The translations under genes and the position numbers were made by a program. This document shows, one piece after another, positions 1-16,826 of a stretch of DNA of 24,778 nucleotides; position 1 is the first letter of the stretch; every line of letters begins with the position of its first letter. A model generated the notes under the pieces. It was not told the origin of the DNA, searched no databases, and saw nothing but the letters and a program-made list of their open reading frames with translations. This DNA is from a virus: the IMG/VR virus record IMGVR_UViG_3300043395_000741, positions 1 to 24,778 of that record. The stretch is one strand, 5' to 3'.

Positions 1-1031
1 AAAAGGCTAAATTTGGTGATGAACAAAAGAAGATTGACGAAGATGCATTAAAAGCTAAAAAAGATTTTGAACAAAAAGCAAGAGAGTTAAGAGATGCAGC
101 AATTGAAGATGAACTACAAAAAGATTTAGCAAATCGTAAAACTAAATACGAAAAGGATTTAGCTGATTTAGAAGCTGATAAAGAGTTTATTAAGAAATCT
201 GAAACTGAAAAGGCAGATTTAAGAAAAGCATTATTAGAAGCATACAATAATGATGTTGATAAGATTGAAGAAAATAATAAACTTAAAAAGTTAGAAGAAC
301 AATTAAAGTATGATGAAGCAAGATTAAAATCATTACAGGAAGGCACTAAAGAATATTTTGCACAACAAAGAGTAATTGAAAACGATGCATACGAAGCTCA
401 AAAAGCAAAAGCAAAAGATAACGCAACTGAATTAGAAGCAATTGAAATTGCACATAAAGCAGTTCTTAAGAATATTGACCAGGCTGAATTAGAGGCGAAG
501 AGAAACTTACAATTACAGATTGCAGATTTATATGCAGGATTTGGTAGAAGTTTACAACAAATTGCAGGTAAAAATAAAGCATTAGCAATTGCAGGTTTAT
601 TAGTTGAACAGGCAGCAGGTGTTGCAACAATCATTATCAATACACAGAAAGCAGCAGCAAAAGCAGGATACTTTACACCATTAGGAATTGCAACATTAGT
701 AGCAGGAGCAGCATCAGTTGTTGCAGCAGTTGTAGCAACTAAAAAAGGAATTGACCAAATCAATCAAACACAAATACCAGGTGGTGCTAGTGCAGGTGGT
801 GGAACATCAATGGCTCAAGCAATGCCAACATATACGGGTGGTGGTGCAGGAAGTGCAACTATTCCACAAATTAATGCAAGTGGTGGAGCAAATCCAGCAA
901 CTCAAATATCTGAAACAATACAACAATCTTCATCAAAACCAATGAGAGCATATGTTGTAAGTGGTGATGTAACTACACAACAGGCATTGGATAGAAGAAC
1001 TAACAAAGGTGCAACTTTTGGATTAGGATAG
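1..1031 (+). CDS. Tail tape-measure protein, C-terminal part (5' end outside window)
   Basis: The reading frame is open from the first base (first full codon at base 3) to the stop at 1029-1031, giving about 342 residues of a longer protein. The first 190 or so residues are a charged Lys/Glu/Ala-rich coiled coil. Then comes a hydrophobic Ala/Gly/Val segment (bases about 580-740, with LAIAGLLVEQAAG and LVAGAASVVAAVVAT). The tail is low-complexity Gly/Ala/Ser/Gln and ends with the short motif AYVVSGDVTTQQ. This order is typical of the C-terminus of tape-measure proteins in Bacteroidota phages, where the coiled coil spans the tail tube and sets its length. Its neighbours, a head protease and other virion genes, fit a late module. 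An unrelated large coiled-coil virion protein is the alternative. Confidence 0.75.
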   Translation, partial: KAKFGDEQKKIDEDALKAKKDFEQKARELRDAAIEDELQKDLANRKTKYEKDLADLEADKEFIKKSETEKADLRKALLEAYNNDVDKIEENNKLKKLEEQLKYDEARLKSLQEGTKEYFAQQRVIENDAYEAQKAKAKDNATELEAIEIAHKAVLKNIDQAELEAKRNLQLQIADLYAGFGRSLQQIAGKNKALAIAGLLVEQAAGVATIIINTQKAAAKAGYFTPLGIATLVAGAASVVAAVVATKKGIDQINQTQIPGGASAGGGTSMAQAMPTYTGGGAGSATIPQINASGGANPATQISETIQQSSSKPMRAYVVSGDVTTQQALDRRTNKGATFGLG

Positions 1032-1061: not shown

Positions 1062-2147
1062 ATGAACGAAAATTACGAAATATACGAATTAGTAATGAGA
1101 GATGATGAAGATGAGGTCTTCGCTCTATCATTAGTATCCGAGCCGGCAATACAACAAGATTTTGTTTATTTCGGTATTAACGGAAAAGAGGTAGTTCAAT
1201 TCGCAACAGCGGATGCAGATAAACATACTATTGTAGGCCCAATCTTAATTCCTGATATTAAGATATTAAGATTAAAAGATGATGGAACTCCTTACTATGT
1301 AACATTTACTAAAGAGACCGTTCAGAAATTAGCACAGAAATATATTAAAGATAATAACGCAAACAACATTACATTAGAACATCAGAAACCTGTAACAGGT
1401 GTGAGTTTGGTTGAGAGTTGGATTGCAGAAAGTGCTTTATACGATAAAGCAAAATCATATGGTTTAAATGTAAAACCAGGAACCTGGATGGGTGTTTTCA
1501 AAGTTGATAACAATGATATTTGGAATAACTTTGTAAAAACGGGAAAGGTAAAAGGCATAAGTCTTGAAGGTCTATTCACGCACGAGTTGATGAAAGCATC
1601 AAAGATTGAATTAGAATTTTTAGATAAAGATATTAACGAATTAACTGAAGATGAAGCAGAAATCTTTTTGGGATTGATTAAAAATACAATTAAGAAAGAT
1701 AAAAGATATTCAAAGGGTGAAACACTTGTTGAAGAGTCACATTCAGATTATGGTTCAGCAGTTCGTTCAAATGCAAAAAGAGCATTGAAATGGGCGGAAG
1801 AACATGGTTGGGGTAGTTGTGGAACACCTGTTGGCAAACAAAGAGCAAACCAGTTGAGTAAGGGTGAACCGATTTCAGTTGATACTATTAAGCGAATGCA
1901 TTCGTTCTTAAGTAGACATGAGAAGGATTTACAATCATCAACATCTTATTCAGATGGATGTGGTAAATTAATGTATGATGCGTGGGGAGGTAAAGCAGGA
2001 TTAAGATGGAGTAGAAACAAATTAAGAAAGTTAGGATTGTTAGTTGAAGAAGAAGCACAACCATCAATCAGTTCAACATACCCTGGTGAAGGGCCTAAAA
2101 AGAAAAAAGATTATACACATCCGGCTTTAATCGGACAAAAAAAATAA
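1062..2147 (+). CDS. XkdF-like prohead (head maturation) serine protease
   Basis: A 361-residue protein. Residues about 1-180 resemble the XkdF-like phage serine protease family (S78-type), which cleaves scaffold and capsid proteins during head maturation. Visible candidates for catalysis are His107 in TLEHQKPVTG, Glu118 in VESW and Ser167 in KGISLEGLF. A second module at about 228-328 starts GSAVRSNAKRALKWAEEHGW and contains GSCGTPVG, ANQLSKGEPIS, SDGCGKLMYDAWGG and WSRNKL. I recall this module in other phage head-protease and head-associated proteins, but its role is not known to me. A Lys-rich tail ends the protein. The gene follows the tape-measure gene by 30 bases and the next gene starts 3 bases after its stop. 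Its position downstream of the tape measure, far from the capsid gene at 20753, is unusual. The assignment is fairly secure for the N-terminal domain. Confidence 0.75.
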   Translation: MNENYEIYELVMRDDEDEVFALSLVSEPAIQQDFVYFGINGKEVVQFATADADKHTIVGPILIPDIKILRLKDDGTPYYVTFTKETVQKLAQKYIKDNNANNITLEHQKPVTGVSLVESWIAESALYDKAKSYGLNVKPGTWMGVFKVDNNDIWNNFVKTGKVKGISLEGLFTHELMKASKIELEFLDKDINELTEDEAEIFLGLIKNTIKKDKRYSKGETLVEESHSDYGSAVRSNAKRALKWAEEHGWGSCGTPVGKQRANQLSKGEPISVDTIKRMHSFLSRHEKDLQSSTSYSDGCGKLMYDAWGGKAGLRWSRNKLRKLGLLVEEEAQPSISSTYPGEGPKKKKDYTHPALIGQKK

Positions 2148-2150
2148 ACT

Positions 2151-2519
2151 ATGGCAAGTATAGTAGAAATAGTATCGTATTTTAACAACGCAAAGCAACA
2201 GGCTATCGTTTGGCATCAACAAACTGATAGTTTTTCAGAACATAAAGCATTAGAAGAATTCTATGATGAAATCGTAGGATTGTTAGATGAATTATCTGAA
2301 AGTTATGCAGGTATCTATGGAAGATTATCACCTTATGAAGTTGATGATTTAATGGATTGGACATCTACTGATGATACAATAAAGTATTACAGAGGTTGTT
2401 ATGATTGGTTGCAAGTTGAAAGAAAATCAGCACCACAAGATAGTTTCATTCAAAATCAATTGGATGAGATAACACAATTGTTAGGACAAACTCTTTACAG
2501 ATTATCATTAAGAAAATAA
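2151..2519 (+). CDS. Small helical protein, DUF5856/Dps-like pattern
   Basis: A 122-residue, mostly helical acidic protein. Near the N-terminus (residues 21-48) it has WHQQTDSFSEHKALEEFYD followed by a Leu/Asp/Glu helix. The spacing of His22 and His31 with the acidic residues recalls the HWQ...H...FYD pattern of the DUF5856 family in large phages, and more distantly ferritin-like (Dps) helices. No catalytic role can be claimed. It starts 3 bases after the protease stop, and its stop codon overlaps the next start codon, so it is translated as part of the late operon. It could be a minor virion or assembly protein. Confidence 0.6.
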   Translation: MASIVEIVSYFNNAKQQAIVWHQQTDSFSEHKALEEFYDEIVGLLDELSESYAGIYGRLSPYEVDDLMDWTSTDDTIKYYRGCYDWLQVERKSAPQDSFIQNQLDEITQLLGQTLYRLSLRK

Positions 2520-4046: not shown

Positions 4047-4075
4047 GATAATATTAAAAAAAAAGTTTAAAAATA

Positions 4076-4660: not shown

Positions 4661-5629
4661 ATGAACAATTTAGTATCAAAACTAAAACAACAAATCGTTA
4701 AAAATGAACAAACGATTGAACAAAAGAGAAGTGAAACTCTTAACAAAGTGAACAAAATTTGTAATTCAGAAGAAATGAAAAAGGTATTGAAAGATACAGG
4801 ATTTCTGATTGAAGATAGGGGAACATTTTTTGAGTATATGAAAAATAGAGAAAATCAAATTTTAACTTCAAAGTTCAAATCAACCGATGGTTTAGAATTT
4901 AAAATAGATTACACTTATGGTGATTATCATTCATCAATTAATCAACATTTAATCGCTAGATTTAAAATTGGTGATTGTAATGTGGATTATTCGGTAAAAG
5001 GTAAATTTACAATGAGTTATTGTAATAAGGAAGAAGATTTCAAAAAACTTAATGAATGGTATCAAAACTACGATAGGTATACCAAAGTTATTACTTCAAC
5101 ACCAATCAAAAACCTATTGGTTGTATTAAATGAATATGTTGTTGATTACAATAATTTATTGAATGATATTAATGAATATACTACTATTATTCAAACACTT
5201 GAACAAAGTGAAATAGAAGATACAATTAATGATTTTTTATCAAATGGTGGTGAATTAGAATTGGGTATTCACAAAGAATGTGATTGGGATTATGATGAAA
5301 ATGATGAAAGGGTATTCCATCTTAACGATGTTAGAGAAACAATTGGTTTGGATTATAAAGATTTGAATGGTGTGAAAGAATGGGATACAATTTCAAAGAT
5401 TAAAGTTCTTAACAAAGTGAAAGGTAAACAAAGTTGGGAAGTTGAATTGTATAGACATTCAAATAAGGATATTAATACTTTTACATATTATAATACAGGT
5501 ATCATTACAAAACAAAAATTAAGTAATTTGATAGAAAGTATGATTGAAAGTAATAAGAAAATTGATACTAAAACTCAAAATAGTATTGATTACTATAACG
5601 AAAAAACTTCAAACCAATTAGTAAAATAA
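4661..5629 (+). CDS. Hypothetical early protein, 322 residues, coiled-coil ends
   Basis: The largest protein of the early block; I do not recognise it. Residues 1-35 form a charged helix (LKQQIVKNEQTIEQKRSE). The middle is mixed, with aromatic and acidic patches (DYTYGDYHSS, then CDWDYDENDERVFHLNDV at about 207-224). A Leu/Ile/Asn-rich helical part lies around residues 145-190, and a helix at the C-terminus. It has no transmembrane segment or known catalytic motif. A 65-base gap with a hairpin separates it from the gene upstream, and another hairpin follows, so it may be controlled separately at RNA level. Confidence 0.6.
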   Translation: MNNLVSKLKQQIVKNEQTIEQKRSETLNKVNKICNSEEMKKVLKDTGFLIEDRGTFFEYMKNRENQILTSKFKSTDGLEFKIDYTYGDYHSSINQHLIARFKIGDCNVDYSVKGKFTMSYCNKEEDFKKLNEWYQNYDRYTKVITSTPIKNLLVVLNEYVVDYNNLLNDINEYTTIIQTLEQSEIEDTINDFLSNGGELELGIHKECDWDYDENDERVFHLNDVRETIGLDYKDLNGVKEWDTISKIKVLNKVKGKQSWEVELYRHSNKDINTFTYYNTGIITKQKLSNLIESMIESNKKIDTKTQNSIDYYNEKTSNQLVK

Positions 5630-9206: not shown

Positions 9207-9753
9207 TGAAGTGACAGGTAGTATACAAACACAATGTGATAAAAGATTAACTATACTATATCAGCAATCACATACCTGGTTACTAAAAGCATCTTATAAT
9301 ATTTGTAAATCATTTGAAGAGAGTGAGGAATTAGTAAGTGACCTTTACCTTTATTTAGCAAAAGAATGTAGGCCTGAAATATGGTGGGGTGATAGTTACA
9401 ATTTAATCTATCTACAAAAGTTTTTAAGACATAGATGGTATAATAGGGTTGAGAAACTCAAAAGGTTTCATTATACGGATAAAAACGGGATATTTGAAGA
9501 TACATACGAAGAATACGATGAGGTGAAGGATGAGGAGATAATGAAGGCCTATGATGATGTGATGAAAGAGTTACAACATCTACAAATTACTAAACTATGG
9601 CCACAAGCCCGTTTATATGAAATGTATTGGATGAGTGATGATACTCTTAATGAAGTTGCGAAAAAGATTGGTATATCAAAGAGCACTACATTCCTTGCAA
9701 TTAAAAAGATACGCAATCATATGAGAAGTGTAGTCCAAAACCCATTCAATTGA
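9199..9753 (+). CDS. Sigma-70-like regulator, candidate late transcription factor
   Basis: A 184-residue protein from the ATG at 9199, which overlaps the previous gene by eight bases. The in-frame ATG at 9121 would overlap it by 86 bases. The N-terminal half (WLLKASYNICKSFEESEELV, then SDLYLYLAKE) resembles region 2 of extracytoplasmic-type sigma factors. The middle is acidic (EDTYEEYDEVKDEE). Residues about 150-177 (TLNEVAKKIGISKSTTFLAI, then KKIRNHMR) form a region-4-like helix-turn-helix. Small sigma-like proteins of this size occur beside terminase genes in Bacteroidota phages. Its place directly before the first TAACTA-N16-TGTTAAA element makes it a natural candidate to drive late promoters. 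A general DNA-binding regulator, or a terminase-related small protein, is the alternative. Confidence 0.6.
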   Translation: MVNEVTGSIQTQCDKRLTILYQQSHTWLLKASYNICKSFEESEELVSDLYLYLAKECRPEIWWGDSYNLIYLQKFLRHRWYNRVEKLKRFHYTDKNGIFEDTYEEYDEVKDEEIMKAYDDVMKELQHLQITKLWPQARLYEMYWMSDDTLNEVAKKIGISKSTTFLAIKKIRNHMRSVVQNPFN

Positions 9754-9776
9754 TAAGAGAAGAAGAAATATATTTT

Positions 9777-9881
9777 ATGCATTACCCTGACCATACTGCT
9801 GAATTAATGATATTCAATAGATGGGGTGATATAGTTTTTTGGATAACGATAGAAGGATTGCATAACTACAAATGGAATTAG
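9777..9881 (+). CDS. Possible 34-residue protein between regulator and terminase
   Basis: ATG at 9777 opens 34 codons: MHYPDHTAELMIFNRWGDIV, then FWITIEG and a short end, stop TAG at 9879-9881. The frame is also open upstream to a TTG at 9750 that overlaps the regulator's stop and would add nine residues (IREEEIYF region). The aromatic, mixed composition looks protein-like. I do not recognise it. Its 3' end overlaps the TAACTA half of the late element at 9863. Confidence 0.35.
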   Translation: MHYPDHTAELMIFNRWGDIVFWITIEGLHNYKWN

Positions 9882-9891
9882 GTATGTTAAA
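9863..9891 (+). promoter_or_regulatory. Late-type element before the terminase genes
   Basis: TAACTA (9863-9868), 16 bases, TGTTAAA (9885-9891). The spacing is identical to the copies at 17782, 19919 and 22408. It lies 23 bases before the small-terminase start codon. It does not match the Bacteroidota TAnnTTTG consensus. Confidence 0.5.
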
Positions 9892-9914
9892 AAAACATAT
9901 AAAACATAATTAAG

Positions 9915-10223
9915 ATGCCGTTTCAACCAGGAAACAAATTAAGTAAGGGTAGACCAGCAGGTGGATTAAATCGTTCAACTGAGCAAGCTAAATTAGCAAT
10001 TGCAAGATTAGCAAATCAGGGTTTGGATGCGATTAGAGAGGATATGGAGAGAATACGAAAACAAAATCCAGCAAAAGCAGCTGAAATCTATTTGAGGTTA
10101 TTAGAATATATCGTTCCTAAAAAGGCACAGATAGATATGAAAGCACAAATAGACCAAAATATAAAACAGATAAGTGTAAACATATCAGATGGAACTAAAC
10201 ATCAACACATCAAAGACATATAG
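9915..10223 (+). CDS. Putative terminase small subunit
   Basis: A 102-residue basic helical protein. It opens with the pattern FQPGNKLSKGRPAGGLNRST, which is common at the N-terminus of short phage proteins encoded directly before the large terminase (GNxxxxGRPKGxxNKxT). Helices follow (AKLAIARLANQGLDAIREDM; AAEIYLRLLEYIVPKKAQ). Small subunits recognise the packaging site and stimulate the large subunit. The large-subunit start codon lies within this gene (35-base overlap), supporting the pairing. Identification depends on position and on the N-terminal pattern, as these proteins diverge quickly. Confidence 0.7.
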   Translation: MPFQPGNKLSKGRPAGGLNRSTEQAKLAIARLANQGLDAIREDMERIRKQNPAKAAEIYLRLLEYIVPKKAQIDMKAQIDQNIKQISVNISDGTKHQHIKDI

Positions 10224-11361
10224 GGATATACAAAATAGTAGAAGGATTTGCATTCTCCAAGGCGGGACGCGTTCGGGTAAATCGCATTCTACGCTACAAT
10301 GGATATTAGTTCAAGCTCTATCAACTCCTAATCTTATCGTTTCAATTGTAAGAAAATCATTTCCTTCAATGAGAGTATCAATTATGCGAGATTGGATAAT
10401 GATACTGAAAGATTTAGGTATATGGAGTGAAGAACAATGGAGTGCAACCGAACACATCTATACATTTGAAAACGGAAGTATGGTTGAGTTTATGTCCATT
10501 GATAGTTCTGAAAAAAGAAAAGGTAGTAGTAGAGATATTCTTTTTGTTGATGAAGCAAATGAATTAAGTAGAGAAGATTGGTTTCAGTTATTCATTAGAA
10601 CACGCCAAAAGAGTATAATAGCATACAACCCATCATTCGGAACTAATCACTATATATTCACAGAAATACAAACACATCCTGAAGCAGACCTATACATTTC
10701 AACTTTCAGAGATAATCCATTTTTAGAGAAGCAATTAGTTGAAGAGATTGAAAGGTTAAAAGAAATAAATCCTGAATACTATAAGATATATGGTATGGGA
10801 ATGCCTGGCAATAACATAGGAACAATATTCTCAATAAACATAATAGATGAAGTGCCAGAACAGGCAGAGTTTATTGCATTCGGTATGGATTATGGATTTA
10901 GTGTAGACCCAACAACTCTAATAGCAGTAAGTAAAATAGATAAGGATTTATACATTGAGGAATTGATTTATAAAAAGGGAATGGTAACGCAGGATATAAT
11001 CAATGAATTAAAATCGTTGGATATAGATAGAAATGAGATATGGGGTGATAGTGCGGAACAAAGATTGATAGAAGAAATATATCGTTCAGGCTTTAACATC
11101 AAACCTGTAAAAAAGGGTAAAGATAGTGTAAGGTTAGGAATAGATTTAATGCAACAATACCGATTGAATGTAACAAAGAGTAGTGTTAATACAATCAAAG
11201 AATTTAGTGAGTATGTGTGGATGGTTGATAAGAATGGTAATTTTGAAAACATACCTGTTGATTACTCTAACCATAGTATAGATGCAATTCGTTATGTTGT
11301 GATGGAAAGATTAAATGCAAAGAAAATAAACGCAGGAAAATATTCAATTTCAATTAGATAA
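10189..11361 (+). CDS. terL: Terminase large subunit
   Basis: A 390-residue packaging motor that couples ATP hydrolysis to DNA translocation into the prohead and cuts the concatemer. Walker A is GGTRSGKS (25-32), Walker B ILFVDEAN (117-124, catalytic Glu122), and AYNPS (145-149) fits the coupling motif. The RNase H-like nuclease follows with Asp234 in GMDYGFSVDP, Asp288 in GDSAEQ and Asp365 in SIDAIRY. The length is normal for the compact terminases of Bacteroidota phages. The ATG at 10189 leaves a normal N-terminus before Walker A and overlaps the small-subunit gene by 35 bases. The next gene starts 3 bases after the stop. This is the most certain assignment in the window. Confidence 0.95.
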   Translation: MELNINTSKTYRDIQNSRRICILQGGTRSGKSHSTLQWILVQALSTPNLIVSIVRKSFPSMRVSIMRDWIMILKDLGIWSEEQWSATEHIYTFENGSMVEFMSIDSSEKRKGSSRDILFVDEANELSREDWFQLFIRTRQKSIIAYNPSFGTNHYIFTEIQTHPEADLYISTFRDNPFLEKQLVEEIERLKEINPEYYKIYGMGMPGNNIGTIFSINIIDEVPEQAEFIAFGMDYGFSVDPTTLIAVSKIDKDLYIEELIYKKGMVTQDIINELKSLDIDRNEIWGDSAEQRLIEEIYRSGFNIKPVKKGKDSVRLGIDLMQQYRLNVTKSSVNTIKEFSEYVWMVDKNGNFENIPVDYSNHSIDAIRYVVMERLNAKKINAGKYSISIR

Positions 11362-11673: not shown

Positions 11674-11857
11674 TTTAGAGCAAGTAGAAGCAATGTTTGA
11701 TTTATGCACAGAGTTAATGAGTATAAACGAAACACAAAACGCACAACTGATTGCTTTTAATGCTAAACTACAAAACGAAGAGAAAAAGGTGAAAGCATTA
11801 GAGCAGAAATTATTTTTCCTATCACAAGCATTTACAAATAACACATATAAAGCATAA
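11648..11857 (+). CDS. Small coiled-coil protein
   Basis: A 69-residue acidic helical protein with heptad-like hydrophobic spacing (SLEQVEAMFDLCTELMSINE; FNAKLQNEEKKVKALEQKLF). I do not recognise a family. It starts inside the zinc-ribbon gene and its last base is the first base of the next start codon (TAATGA), so it is tightly coupled to both neighbours. A role as a partner of the following tail-chaperone-like protein is possible but unproved. Confidence 0.5.
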   Translation: MIIKGQEFSLEQVEAMFDLCTELMSINETQNAQLIAFNAKLQNEEKKVKALEQKLFFLSQAFTNNTYKA

Positions 11858-12498
11858 TGAAAAAAGAAATTAGTATAACGATGCCTGAAGGATGGCAAGA
11901 TGTAAAGTTAAAAACATATTTAGATTTAAGTAGGGATTTAGTGAACTATGAAGATGATGAGGAAGCACAGGTAGCTTTAATGTTGTATCACTTATGTGGT
12001 ATTGATGGTAATCTATTAAAGCAGTTATCACAACAATCATTCAATCAGTTAAAGCATGAATTAAATACATTTATGCAACCTGCTGAATTACCATTACAAA
12101 GGATAATCACTATAAACGGAATTGAATATGGATTTGAACCTAACTTAAGCCGAATATCTTATGGTGCATATGCTGATATATCTAAATACGATACAGTCCA
12201 AATAGACGATAATTGGGCAAAGATAATGAGTATACTATATAGACCTGTTGTGAGTAGAAATGGTGAAACATATTCAATAGAACCATACGAAGGTGTAATT
12301 GATGAGAGTAAATTCTTAAACACAACAATGGATATACATTTCGGAGCATTGTTTTTTTTTGTTCGTTTGTCAAGGGACTTACTGAATTATACCCTGAACT
12401 CTACGATAGTGATGGAGAAATATCCACACTTCAACTCAATTTTGGCAAGAAGTGGAAAGCATATGCTACCATTGTGGAACTTGCCAACGGAGATATAA
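11857..12498 (+). CDS. Tail-assembly-chaperone-like protein, zero-frame product
   Basis: In the zero frame the product has 213 residues. The first 168 (MKKEISITMPEGWQDVKLKT, LMLYHLCGIDGN, INGIEYGFEPNLSRISYGAY, DIHFGALFFF) resemble proteins of Bacteroidota phages that carry a continuous C-terminal domain. In this sequence that domain lies in the -1 frame (12360-12620). After the run of nine T (12352-12360) the zero frame continues for 45 residues (VRLSRDLLNYTLNSTIVMEK onwards) that do not look related. The pattern recalls the G/GT tail chaperones, which are made as short and frameshifted long forms. The alternative is an undercalled T-run in the sequence. Here the gene is next to the terminase and fibre genes, not the tape measure. 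Confidence 0.6.
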   Translation: MKKEISITMPEGWQDVKLKTYLDLSRDLVNYEDDEEAQVALMLYHLCGIDGNLLKQLSQQSFNQLKHELNTFMQPAELPLQRIITINGIEYGFEPNLSRISYGAYADISKYDTVQIDDNWAKIMSILYRPVVSRNGETYSIEPYEGVIDESKFLNTTMDIHFGALFFFVRLSRDLLNYTLNSTIVMEKYPHFNSILARSGKHMLPLWNLPTEI

Positions 12499-12620
12499 CA
12501 AAGATAGATAGTGTGGTGAAAGAGCCATTAGAGAAATGTTTATTACTTCTATCTTATAAAGCTGATAAAGGATTAGTGGAAAAAATGATGCATGATGCGG
12601 CTTTAAAAAAATACAACTAA
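12360..12620 (+). CDS. -1 frame extension of the tail-chaperone-like protein
   Basis: Slipping back one base on the T-run (12352-12360) enters a frame that stays open for 86 codons to TAA at 12618-12620. It encodes CSFVKGLTELYPELYDSDGE, then LNFGKKWKAYATIVELANGD, ITKIDSVVKEPLEKCLLLLS and a charged helical end (LVEKMMHDAALKKYN). The segment FGKKW...IxxLAxGDITKxDxVxxxPxxxCL is a pattern I recall as the C-terminal part of a single continuous protein in related phages. No start codon or junction signal of its own is visible near 12360. A fused product would have about 254 residues. It explains the otherwise empty stretch 12499-12620. Confidence 0.65.
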   Translation, partial: CSFVKGLTELYPELYDSDGEISTLQLNFGKKWKAYATIVELANGDITKIDSVVKEPLEKCLLLLSYKADKGLVEKMMHDAALKKYN

Positions 12621-12668: not shown

Positions 12669-12899
12669 ATGTCTGTTTGGTCTAATTCTCGTAATGGTAA
12701 TTTAAGATATTCTATTAATCGTCAAAACGCATCGGGTATCTATATTGGCCCTACAAGGGGTTTAAGTTCACCAAAGAATAATCGTAGAGGTTGTCTTTGT
12801 GTTAATGAAGATAGATATGGTAGGGATTGTTGTGGTGGTGCGTTAATATCACAAGGTATCGGTAGAATACAATCACCAGCAAATCAACAAAATCAATAA
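12669..12899 (+). CDS. Small cysteine-containing virion-associated protein
   Basis: A 76-residue protein with a Ser/Asn/Arg-rich N-terminus (MSVWSNSRNGNLRYSINRQN), then GCLCVNEDRYGRDCCGGALI (41-60) and ISQGIGRIQSP. The GCLC...CC-x-GAL...QGIG pattern is one I recall from short structural proteins of uncultured Bacteroidota phages, always near fibre genes. Four cysteines in two pairs could bind metal or form disulfides in the particle. It is the first gene of the fibre unit after the late-type element at 12623, and the next gene starts six bases after its stop. Confidence 0.6.
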   Translation: MSVWSNSRNGNLRYSINRQNASGIYIGPTRGLSSPKNNRRGCLCVNEDRYGRDCCGGALISQGIGRIQSPANQQNQ

Positions 12900-15266: not shown

Positions 15267-16826
15267 ATGAGTTTAATATTAAATGCAAGTATTCAGGGTA
15301 ACCAACAATTTACAGGTAGTGTAGATGTAACGGGCTCATTAAGTATAAACGGAACTTCTCTACCTCAAGCAGTAACACAGGGTGTGCAGGGTGTGCAAGG
15401 AACGCAGGGATTGCAAGGTGCTAATGGACAAAGTAATGCATATTTCAATTATCAAGCAAAAACAGGAACTACGAGTGGTGACCCTGCATCAGGACATTTG
15501 ATTTGGGATAATGTAACACAAACATCAGCAACATCTTTTAATGTAAGTGATACTGATAGTAATTCAAACAATGTAGATATATTTCTTTCTAATATAGGTG
15601 TTGGAAGTATAATAGTATTGCAAGATAAAAACTCTCAATCAAATTATCAGCAATGGCAAATAACTTCTAAAACTGATAACTCAACATATTGGACATACGG
15701 AGCAACTTATTTAGGTGGTGGATATTCTTTTTCAAATAATCAGGATTTATTATTCATCATCGCAGCATATCCAACAGGCCCACAAGGAACACAAGGTATT
15801 CAGGGAGTGCAAGGATTACAAGGTATTCAAGGAATACAAGGTAATTCAGGAACAAATGGAAGTCAAGGTGCAACGGGAGCGCAAGGTATAACTGGAACTG
15901 CCGGCACTAATGGAACAAACGGTGCACAGGGAGCAACAGGAGTACAAGGAACTGCAGGCACCAACGGGACAAATGGAACGAATGGTAGTCAGGGTGCAAC
16001 TGGCTCACAAGGCACTGCAGGCACAAACGGAACAAACGGAAGTCAAGGTGCCACCGGTGCACAAGGAACAGCAGGCACAAACGGAACAAACGGAAGTCAA
16101 GGAACAACCGGCTCTCAAGGAACTGCCGGCACTAATGGCACGAATGGTGCACAAGGAACTGCAGGAACTAACGGGACAAATGGTAGCCAAGGAACAATAG
16201 GAGCACAAGGAACAGCAGGCACCAATGGAACTAACGGAACTCAAGGCACGGCAGGAACAAATGGAACAAATGGAACTCAGGGCACGGCAGGAACCAATGG
16301 CACAAATGGTAGTCAAGGAACAGCAGGCACGAATGGCACCAATGGTTCGCAAGGAGCTACTGGAGCGCAAGGTGCAACAGGTGCAACGGGAGCAAGTGCA
16401 GGAATTACTTCATACACAAATCCTGGAGATAATAGAGTTATAACTTCTGTTAACTCATCTACAATAAATGCAGAAGCAAACTTAACATTTAATGGAAGTT
16501 TATTGACACTTGCAGGTGATATGACCGCAACGGGAGATATTACAGCATTCTATACATCAGATGAAAGATTAAAAGATAATATTATTCCAATAACTGATGC
16601 ATTAGATAAAGTTCGTAAACTAAATGGTGTTAAGTGGGATTGGAATGATAACGCAAGAGAAACAACTCGTTCAACTGCAACATTTGGTTTAATAGCACAA
16701 CAAGTAGAAGAAATAATACCTGAAGTAATAAGAAAAGATTACGAAGGATATTTGCAAATAGATTATTCTAAATTAGTTGCTTTATTAATTGAAGCAATTA
16801 AAGAATTGGAACAAAAAATAAAGTAA
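15267..16826 (+). CDS. Collagen-like tail fibre with C-terminal S74 intramolecular chaperone
   Basis: A 519-residue fibre. Residues 1-50 repeat the attachment style of the preceding protein (LNASIQGNQQFTGSVDVTGS). A globular part follows to about 168, then a Gly-x-y region at 171-379 made largely of TNG, TAG, SQG and ATG triplets, with ten copies of GTAGTNGTNG. Proline is almost absent, unlike animal collagens. Residues about 427-519 form a peptidase S74 chaperone: SDERLKDNIIPI, GVKWDWND, FGLIAQQVEEIIPEV and IDYSKLVALLIEAIKELEQK. In this family the domain trimerises the fibre and usually cleaves itself off before the conserved Ser of SDERLK. The protein probably forms a trimeric host-binding fibre. 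The next gene starts one base after the stop. Confidence 0.9.
   Translation: MSLILNASIQGNQQFTGSVDVTGSLSINGTSLPQAVTQGVQGVQGTQGLQGANGQSNAYFNYQAKTGTTSGDPASGHLIWDNVTQTSATSFNVSDTDSNSNNVDIFLSNIGVGSIIVLQDKNSQSNYQQWQITSKTDNSTYWTYGATYLGGGYSFSNNQDLLFIIAAYPTGPQGTQGIQGVQGLQGIQGIQGNSGTNGSQGATGAQGITGTAGTNGTNGAQGATGVQGTAGTNGTNGTNGSQGATGSQGTAGTNGTNGSQGATGAQGTAGTNGTNGSQGTTGSQGTAGTNGTNGAQGTAGTNGTNGSQGTIGAQGTAGTNGTNGTQGTAGTNGTNGTQGTAGTNGTNGSQGTAGTNGTNGSQGATGAQGATGATGASAGITSYTNPGDNRVITSVNSSTINAEANLTFNGSLLTLAGDMTATGDITAFYTSDERLKDNIIPITDALDKVRKLNGVKWDWNDNARETTRSTATFGLIAQQVEEIIPEVIRKDYEGYLQIDYSKLVALLIEAIKELEQKIK
15777..16403 (+). repeat. DNA encoding the collagen-like Gly-x-y repeats
   Basis: About 627 bases of nine-base and longer related units encode Gly-x-y triplets. 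The protein repeat GTAGTNGTNG occurs ten times but the codons vary between copies (GGA, GGC, GGG; ACA, ACC, ACG; AAC, AAT). This removes long exact DNA repeats. Open frames on the opposite strand here are a by-product of the repeat composition. Confidence 0.85.

Follow-up and report, generated by a model that had tools for sequence, protein, structure and literature searches.

On balance, we think that a siphophage gene makes two forms of a tail assembly chaperone from a run of nine T's, with the slip most likely being made by RNA polymerase. The gene is in a 24,778-nucleotide stretch of viral DNA ("the window"), and the host of this siphophage is probably a member of the Bacteroidota. The parts of the gene are:

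11857..12498, + strand: zero-frame gene for the predicted 213-aa short form (N-domain, residues 1-168, and a 45-residue tail)
12352..12360, + strand: slippery run of nine T's
12360..12620, + strand: -1 frame that encodes the C-domain of the predicted 254-aa long form (86 codons and a stop)
12361..12498, + strand: dual-coding overlap of the zero-frame tail and the -1 frame C-domain

At the run, the zero-frame codons are TTG TTT TTT TTT GTT, and this frame stops at 12498. The first codon that differs in the -1 frame is TGT at 12360, and the stop codon of the -1 frame is at 12618-12620. The predicted products are 213 amino acids (with faithful reading) or 254 amino acids (168 + 86), and 168 residues are common to both. 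No other T run in the window has eight or more bases. An initial annotation of this sequence had reported the nine T's, the end of the zero frame, and the open -1 frame, and we confirmed all three. It also described the 86-residue domain as having no start of its own. In the window, ATG, GTG, and TTG are absent from the -1 frame near the run (the earliest start codon is a GTG about 40 codons in). Among the relatives, there is no conserved start codon, and 30 of the 92 distinct sequences described below have no start codon at all before codon 45 of the -1 frame. We rejected an internal start for the C-domain because a start codon is not conserved.

We propose that faithful mRNA, with nine U's, would be translated to the short form. 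An mRNA with one extra U (U10), or else a -1 step by the ribosome, would give the long form, whose last 86 residues would come from the -1 frame. The two forms would act together as a tail assembly chaperone, like gpG and gpGT of phage lambda or gpE and gpE+E' of phage P2. The tape measure protein would be bound by many short copies and a few long ones, and the long ones would recruit tail-tube subunits through their C-domain. The occurrence, direction, and level of slippage are all part of this proposal.

We searched viral contigs with the N-domain and found 72 relatives. Together with the window, these give 46 distinct sequences around the run. We also ran a peptide search with the C-domain, which does not select for the run, and the best 80 of 567 relatives gave 46 further distinct sequences. 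In both sets, all 46 sequences have an unbroken T9 or T10 and the same -1 relation between the two frames. These 92 distinct sequences include the isolate P12024S, and protein identity among them is as low as 26-31%. T9 is found in the isolates P12024S and P12024L, whose homologues are about 31% identical; they and a third contig (T9 or T10) likewise have the same -1 relation. The codons at the run are TTT TTT TTT in the majority of relatives, with CTT TTT TTT TTA, GTT TTT TTT TAC/TGC, or CTT TTT TTT TAT in the others. In other words, the codon phase of the run shifts among relatives while its length (T9 or T10) and the frame relation persist. With L072 and P12024S as queries, we looked for relatives that diverge further but found near copies only, and one scan of bacterial genomes did not confirm any prophage relatives. 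We considered Flavobacterium phage 6H as a distant homologue and set it aside, as it lacks the T run and its frames are unclear.

The initial annotation had raised the alternative that ten T's were miscalled as nine, so that the gene would really be one continuous frame. Homopolymers are error-prone, and some proteins in BFVD hold both domains as one chain. (Five BFVD proteins of 234-267 amino acids, such as A0A6J5N0W0, match the models for the N-domain and the C-domain together, so the two parts do occur as one chain in some phages.) However, 92 distinct sequences and two sequenced isolates share one and the same -1 relation, and T9 and T10 variants alike keep it. The length of the run is also constant within each of 15 groups of near-identical contigs, and the zero frame is under selection, as discussed below. 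Because every relative keeps the same -1 relation, a miscall is ruled out in practice, and we give sequencing or assembly error a negligible chance. The suggested check, which was to align relatives and see if the run and both frames are kept, found both in all 92 distinct sequences. It is also very unlikely that the switch is phase variation in the DNA, with T9 and T10 genomes in the population that encode short-only or long protein. Replication tends to slip on long T runs, but none of the 92 distinct sequences has a run length that would restore the frame, and the 15 groups of near-identical contigs are uniform in length, although assembled contigs hide minor variants in a population.

Both frames are kept past the run, and selection keeps both of them open. 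In the -1 frame, the C-domain is conserved, with a mean column identity of 59%. The zero frame stays open for about 40-65 codons past the run in all of the relatives tested except for P12024S (26 codons). As a null model, we held the -1 protein fixed and redrew its codons, which gave a mean open length of just 10.7 codons. The openness of the zero frame was significant (P ≤ 0.01) in 29 of 36 sequences, each tested singly. Since selection holds the zero frame open for about 50 codons after the run, the overlap is dual-coding. At fourfold sites, synonymous divergence of the -1 frame rises from 0.358 in the overlap to 0.488 downstream of it. Sequence conservation of the zero-frame tail is only slightly above the null (0.489 vs. 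0.434; the shuffle null for the tail was built on the codon usage of one genome), so we claim only the openness of the tail firmly, and we dropped the idea that its sequence is strongly conserved. The short form is thus predicted to carry a kept tail of about 50 residues. Because the T run is unbroken in every relative examined, the most likely reading is that programmed slippage yields both a short and a long protein from a single gene. Judging from the genes alone, the two-product architecture, with a common N-domain and a product that is longer by a -1 shift, is present in all 92 distinct sequences.

About 15 nt 3' of the run, GGACTT (window 12373-12382) is nearly invariant in most relatives. 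This motif includes a fourfold-degenerate leucine position of the -1 frame, and variation there is almost nil. The invariance may be due to Asp-Leu in the zero frame or to a nucleic-acid signal.

To consider which enzyme might slip, we note that polymerase slippage depends on the length of the run, while ribosomal slippage needs an in-frame heptamer. We counted the distinct T runs in about 1.35 Mb (including redundancy) of related loci and found 567 runs of T5, 164 of T6, 48 of T7, 5 of T8, 77 of T9, and 61 of T10. Runs of nine or more are restricted to two conserved sites, save for one intergenic run before a small-terminase gene, and none of the T8 runs are in coding sequence. So, comparable runs are avoided elsewhere in the coding sequence of these loci, while at the chaperone site, a homopolymer of about nine or more is kept in all 92 distinct sequences, whatever its codon phase. 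In contrast, nine T7 runs in heptamer phase (in-frame T_TTT_TTT) are tolerated elsewhere in coding sequence. (As for runs of nine A's, the one in the window, at 4056-4064, lies outside of the called ORFs, and those in related loci are likewise mostly noncoding.) The distribution of T runs fits with a published report that in many bacteria, coding regions are under selection against long A/T runs of about nine bases (PMC1088944), and with slippage by the E. coli polymerase on runs of at least seven, with a bias for T's (PMC6260861). If slippage is real, then comparison of these sequences suggests that it is likely due to the polymerase, because the length of the run is conserved instead of one heptamer, because no conserved RNA structure was found downstream, and because coding runs of T8 or more are confined to two sites while the heptamer is tolerated elsewhere.

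The slip might instead be classical -1 frameshifting by the ribosome, at T_TTT_TTT (T_TTT_TTA where the run is T10), and the length of the run would then be a by-product of selection for many phenylalanines. This is a more serious contender than error or phase variation, but we still consider it doubtful. Ribosomal slippage is possible because a heptamer of the form X_XXY_YYZ, namely T_TTT_TTT, is available in frame at the run in every sequence, and lambda and numerous other phages are known to use this route (PMC5009743). On the other hand, versions with T7 or T8, which would preserve the heptamer, were never found at this site among the relatives examined, even though the heptamer alone is tolerated elsewhere. 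Also, in E. coli, A_AAA_AAG is far more shift-prone than U_UUU_UUU (PMC5009743). A 7-bp hairpin just 3' of the run, which would favor the ribosome, is possible in a subset of relatives, but it is not conserved: 71% of cells are paired, which is barely above shuffles, and RNAalifold does not predict a structure at this position. Among 29 aligned sequences, we found no conserved RNA structure downstream of the run that could serve as a stimulatory element, and we dropped the idea of one there. Not all -1 ribosomal sites need such an element. Overall, the programmed -1 switch of the initial annotation is strongly supported by conservation, but a ribosomal mechanism seems less likely than transcriptional slippage, which that annotation did not consider.

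The second conserved site is a T10 in a neck or tail-completion-like gene. In many relatives, this gene is a fusion of about 285-290 amino acids, with the T10 at about codon 167:

L078 (relative G003), 1412-2275, minus strand: second-site fusion gene
L079 (relative G004), 4732-5598: second-site fusion gene
L161-L240: also second-site fusion genes

The context CTT TTT TTT TTR is kept in all 59 distinct sequences. The +1 frame stops at once in all of them, and in 57 of the 59, the -1 frame stops within four further codons. None of the 33 clusters shows any variation in the codons CTT, TTT, and TTT. Because this is so even though CTT accounts for just 10.6% of leucine codons, no single heptamer explains the T10. 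From the positions of these stops, slippage at the second site would truncate the protein instead of extending it, and the predicted slipped products end where the unfused homologue ends. L078 has an unfused copy (172 aa, 9298-9816 in reverse-complement coordinates) beside a fused one (287 aa, 9819-10682). The window ends 105 bases into its tail-completion-like gene, and the start of this gene is most similar to the unfused version in G001.

Is the protein a tail assembly chaperone (TAC)? PF10109 (Phage_TAC_7) matches 14 of 35 members, within residues 2-73 of the N-domain, with a best score of 19.5 bits, which is under the curated cut-off of 25. PHROG_166 ("tail protein") matches 26 of 35 members (best 2.5e-7), and PHROG_3140 (TAC) matches 8 of 35. 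The predicted N-domain model has good confidence (pLDDT 87.5), and its fold matches an annotated TAC in BFVD (probability 0.99, TM ~0.4). The predicted C-domain model is weak (pLDDT 68). Sequence and fold searches of PDB gave no convincing relative, from which it does not follow that the fold is novel. In the complete relative G001, we found no rival chaperone candidate between the neck and tape measure genes. Because the family matches are weak but consistent, and because the complete relative has no other candidate, a chaperone role is likely. The position of the gene does not add support. Its neighbors and the contig ends are:

10189..11361, + strand: terminase large subunit
12669..12899, + strand: small cysteine-rich protein, the conserved next gene
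3..1031, + strand: tape measure protein, C-terminal part only (truncated at the contig end)
24674..24778, + strand: tail-completion-like gene, start only (truncated at the contig end)

The chaperone-like gene follows the terminase in the window, in P12024S, and in three relatives (G001, G003, and G004); the position directly upstream of the tape measure gene, which is usual but not strictly required, was not seen in any of them. Longer contigs of relatives encode terminase, capsid, portal, an HK97-gp10-like neck protein, and a tape measure protein, and the full-length tape measure homologue matches PHROG_3336/1538. If slippage is real, the protein might instead have another role in virion assembly, near terminase and tail fibres. 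The gene's position, the sub-threshold scores, and the long, kept zero-frame tail would fit such a role, but it would leave the consistency of the N-terminal matches and the missing competitor in G001 to be explained, and we consider it unlikely. So, the chaperone identity given in the initial annotation holds up by family matches and by elimination but not by gene position. Within the tail-fibre block, window 15267-16826 encodes a collagen-like (GxQGxxG)n repeat protein. The long antisense ORFs over these repeats are probably spurious.

More broadly, it could well be that virion assembly in a large Bacteroidota siphophage lineage is governed by polymerase slippage at two opposite T-run switches, one that extends the chaperone and one that truncates the tail-completion protein. 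We see this broader claim as evenly balanced. Frameshifting in tail chaperones is the textbook example of recoding in phages and is taken to be ribosomal. The scheme of two products is already known; the surprising parts are the polymerase mechanism and the paired second site. The T9/T10 run, the selection on the zero frame, and the mirror-image second site point to transcriptional slippage as setting the ratios of virion proteins. If true, this would be the first demonstrated case of transcriptional instead of ribosomal slippage in phage tail genes: in the open-access literature, we found no paper that describes transcriptional slippage as the usual way in which phage tail genes are expressed. 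Public databases misannotate genes like this one, and homopolymer "errors" in contigs of this kind should be left uncorrected.

Like lambda gpG/gpGT and P2 gpE/E+E', the gene has a short form and a -1 extended form with a common N-domain, and P2 gpE and Mu gp41 belong to Phage_TAC_7, the family that our N-domain matches weakly. The shift site of P2 is a T-rich heptamer too. But lambda and P2 have one heptamer, instead of an uninterrupted T9 or T10; their zero frames have a few codons past the site, instead of about 50; their genes precede the tape measure gene instead of adjoining the terminase; and here we did not find a conserved RNA stimulator. Across annotated chaperone frameshifts, the zero frame extends a mean of 26-36 nt past the site (PMC10274946), which is far exceeded by the roughly 50 codons here. 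In the Nonlabens phages P12024S and P12024L, genes 38/39 form a homologue that likewise has T9 and this -1 C-domain, with the zero frame ending 26 codons past the run; the P12024S annotation splits the two parts into separate hypothetical genes. In Shigella spa13 and in bacterial IS elements, a run of about nine A's or T's likewise allows a C-terminal extension to be read from a different frame, and homologues likewise keep the run (PMC5009743, PMC1088944). These are not phage tail genes, and slippage in spa13 was shown by experiment, while here we infer it. The second site resembles dnaX of Thermus thermophilus, in which unslipped mRNA gives the long product and slipped mRNA reaches nearby stops in the other frames and gives the short one (PMC1088944), but dnaX has an A9 in a DNA polymerase gene, while the second site is a T10 in a tail-completion-like gene of a phage.
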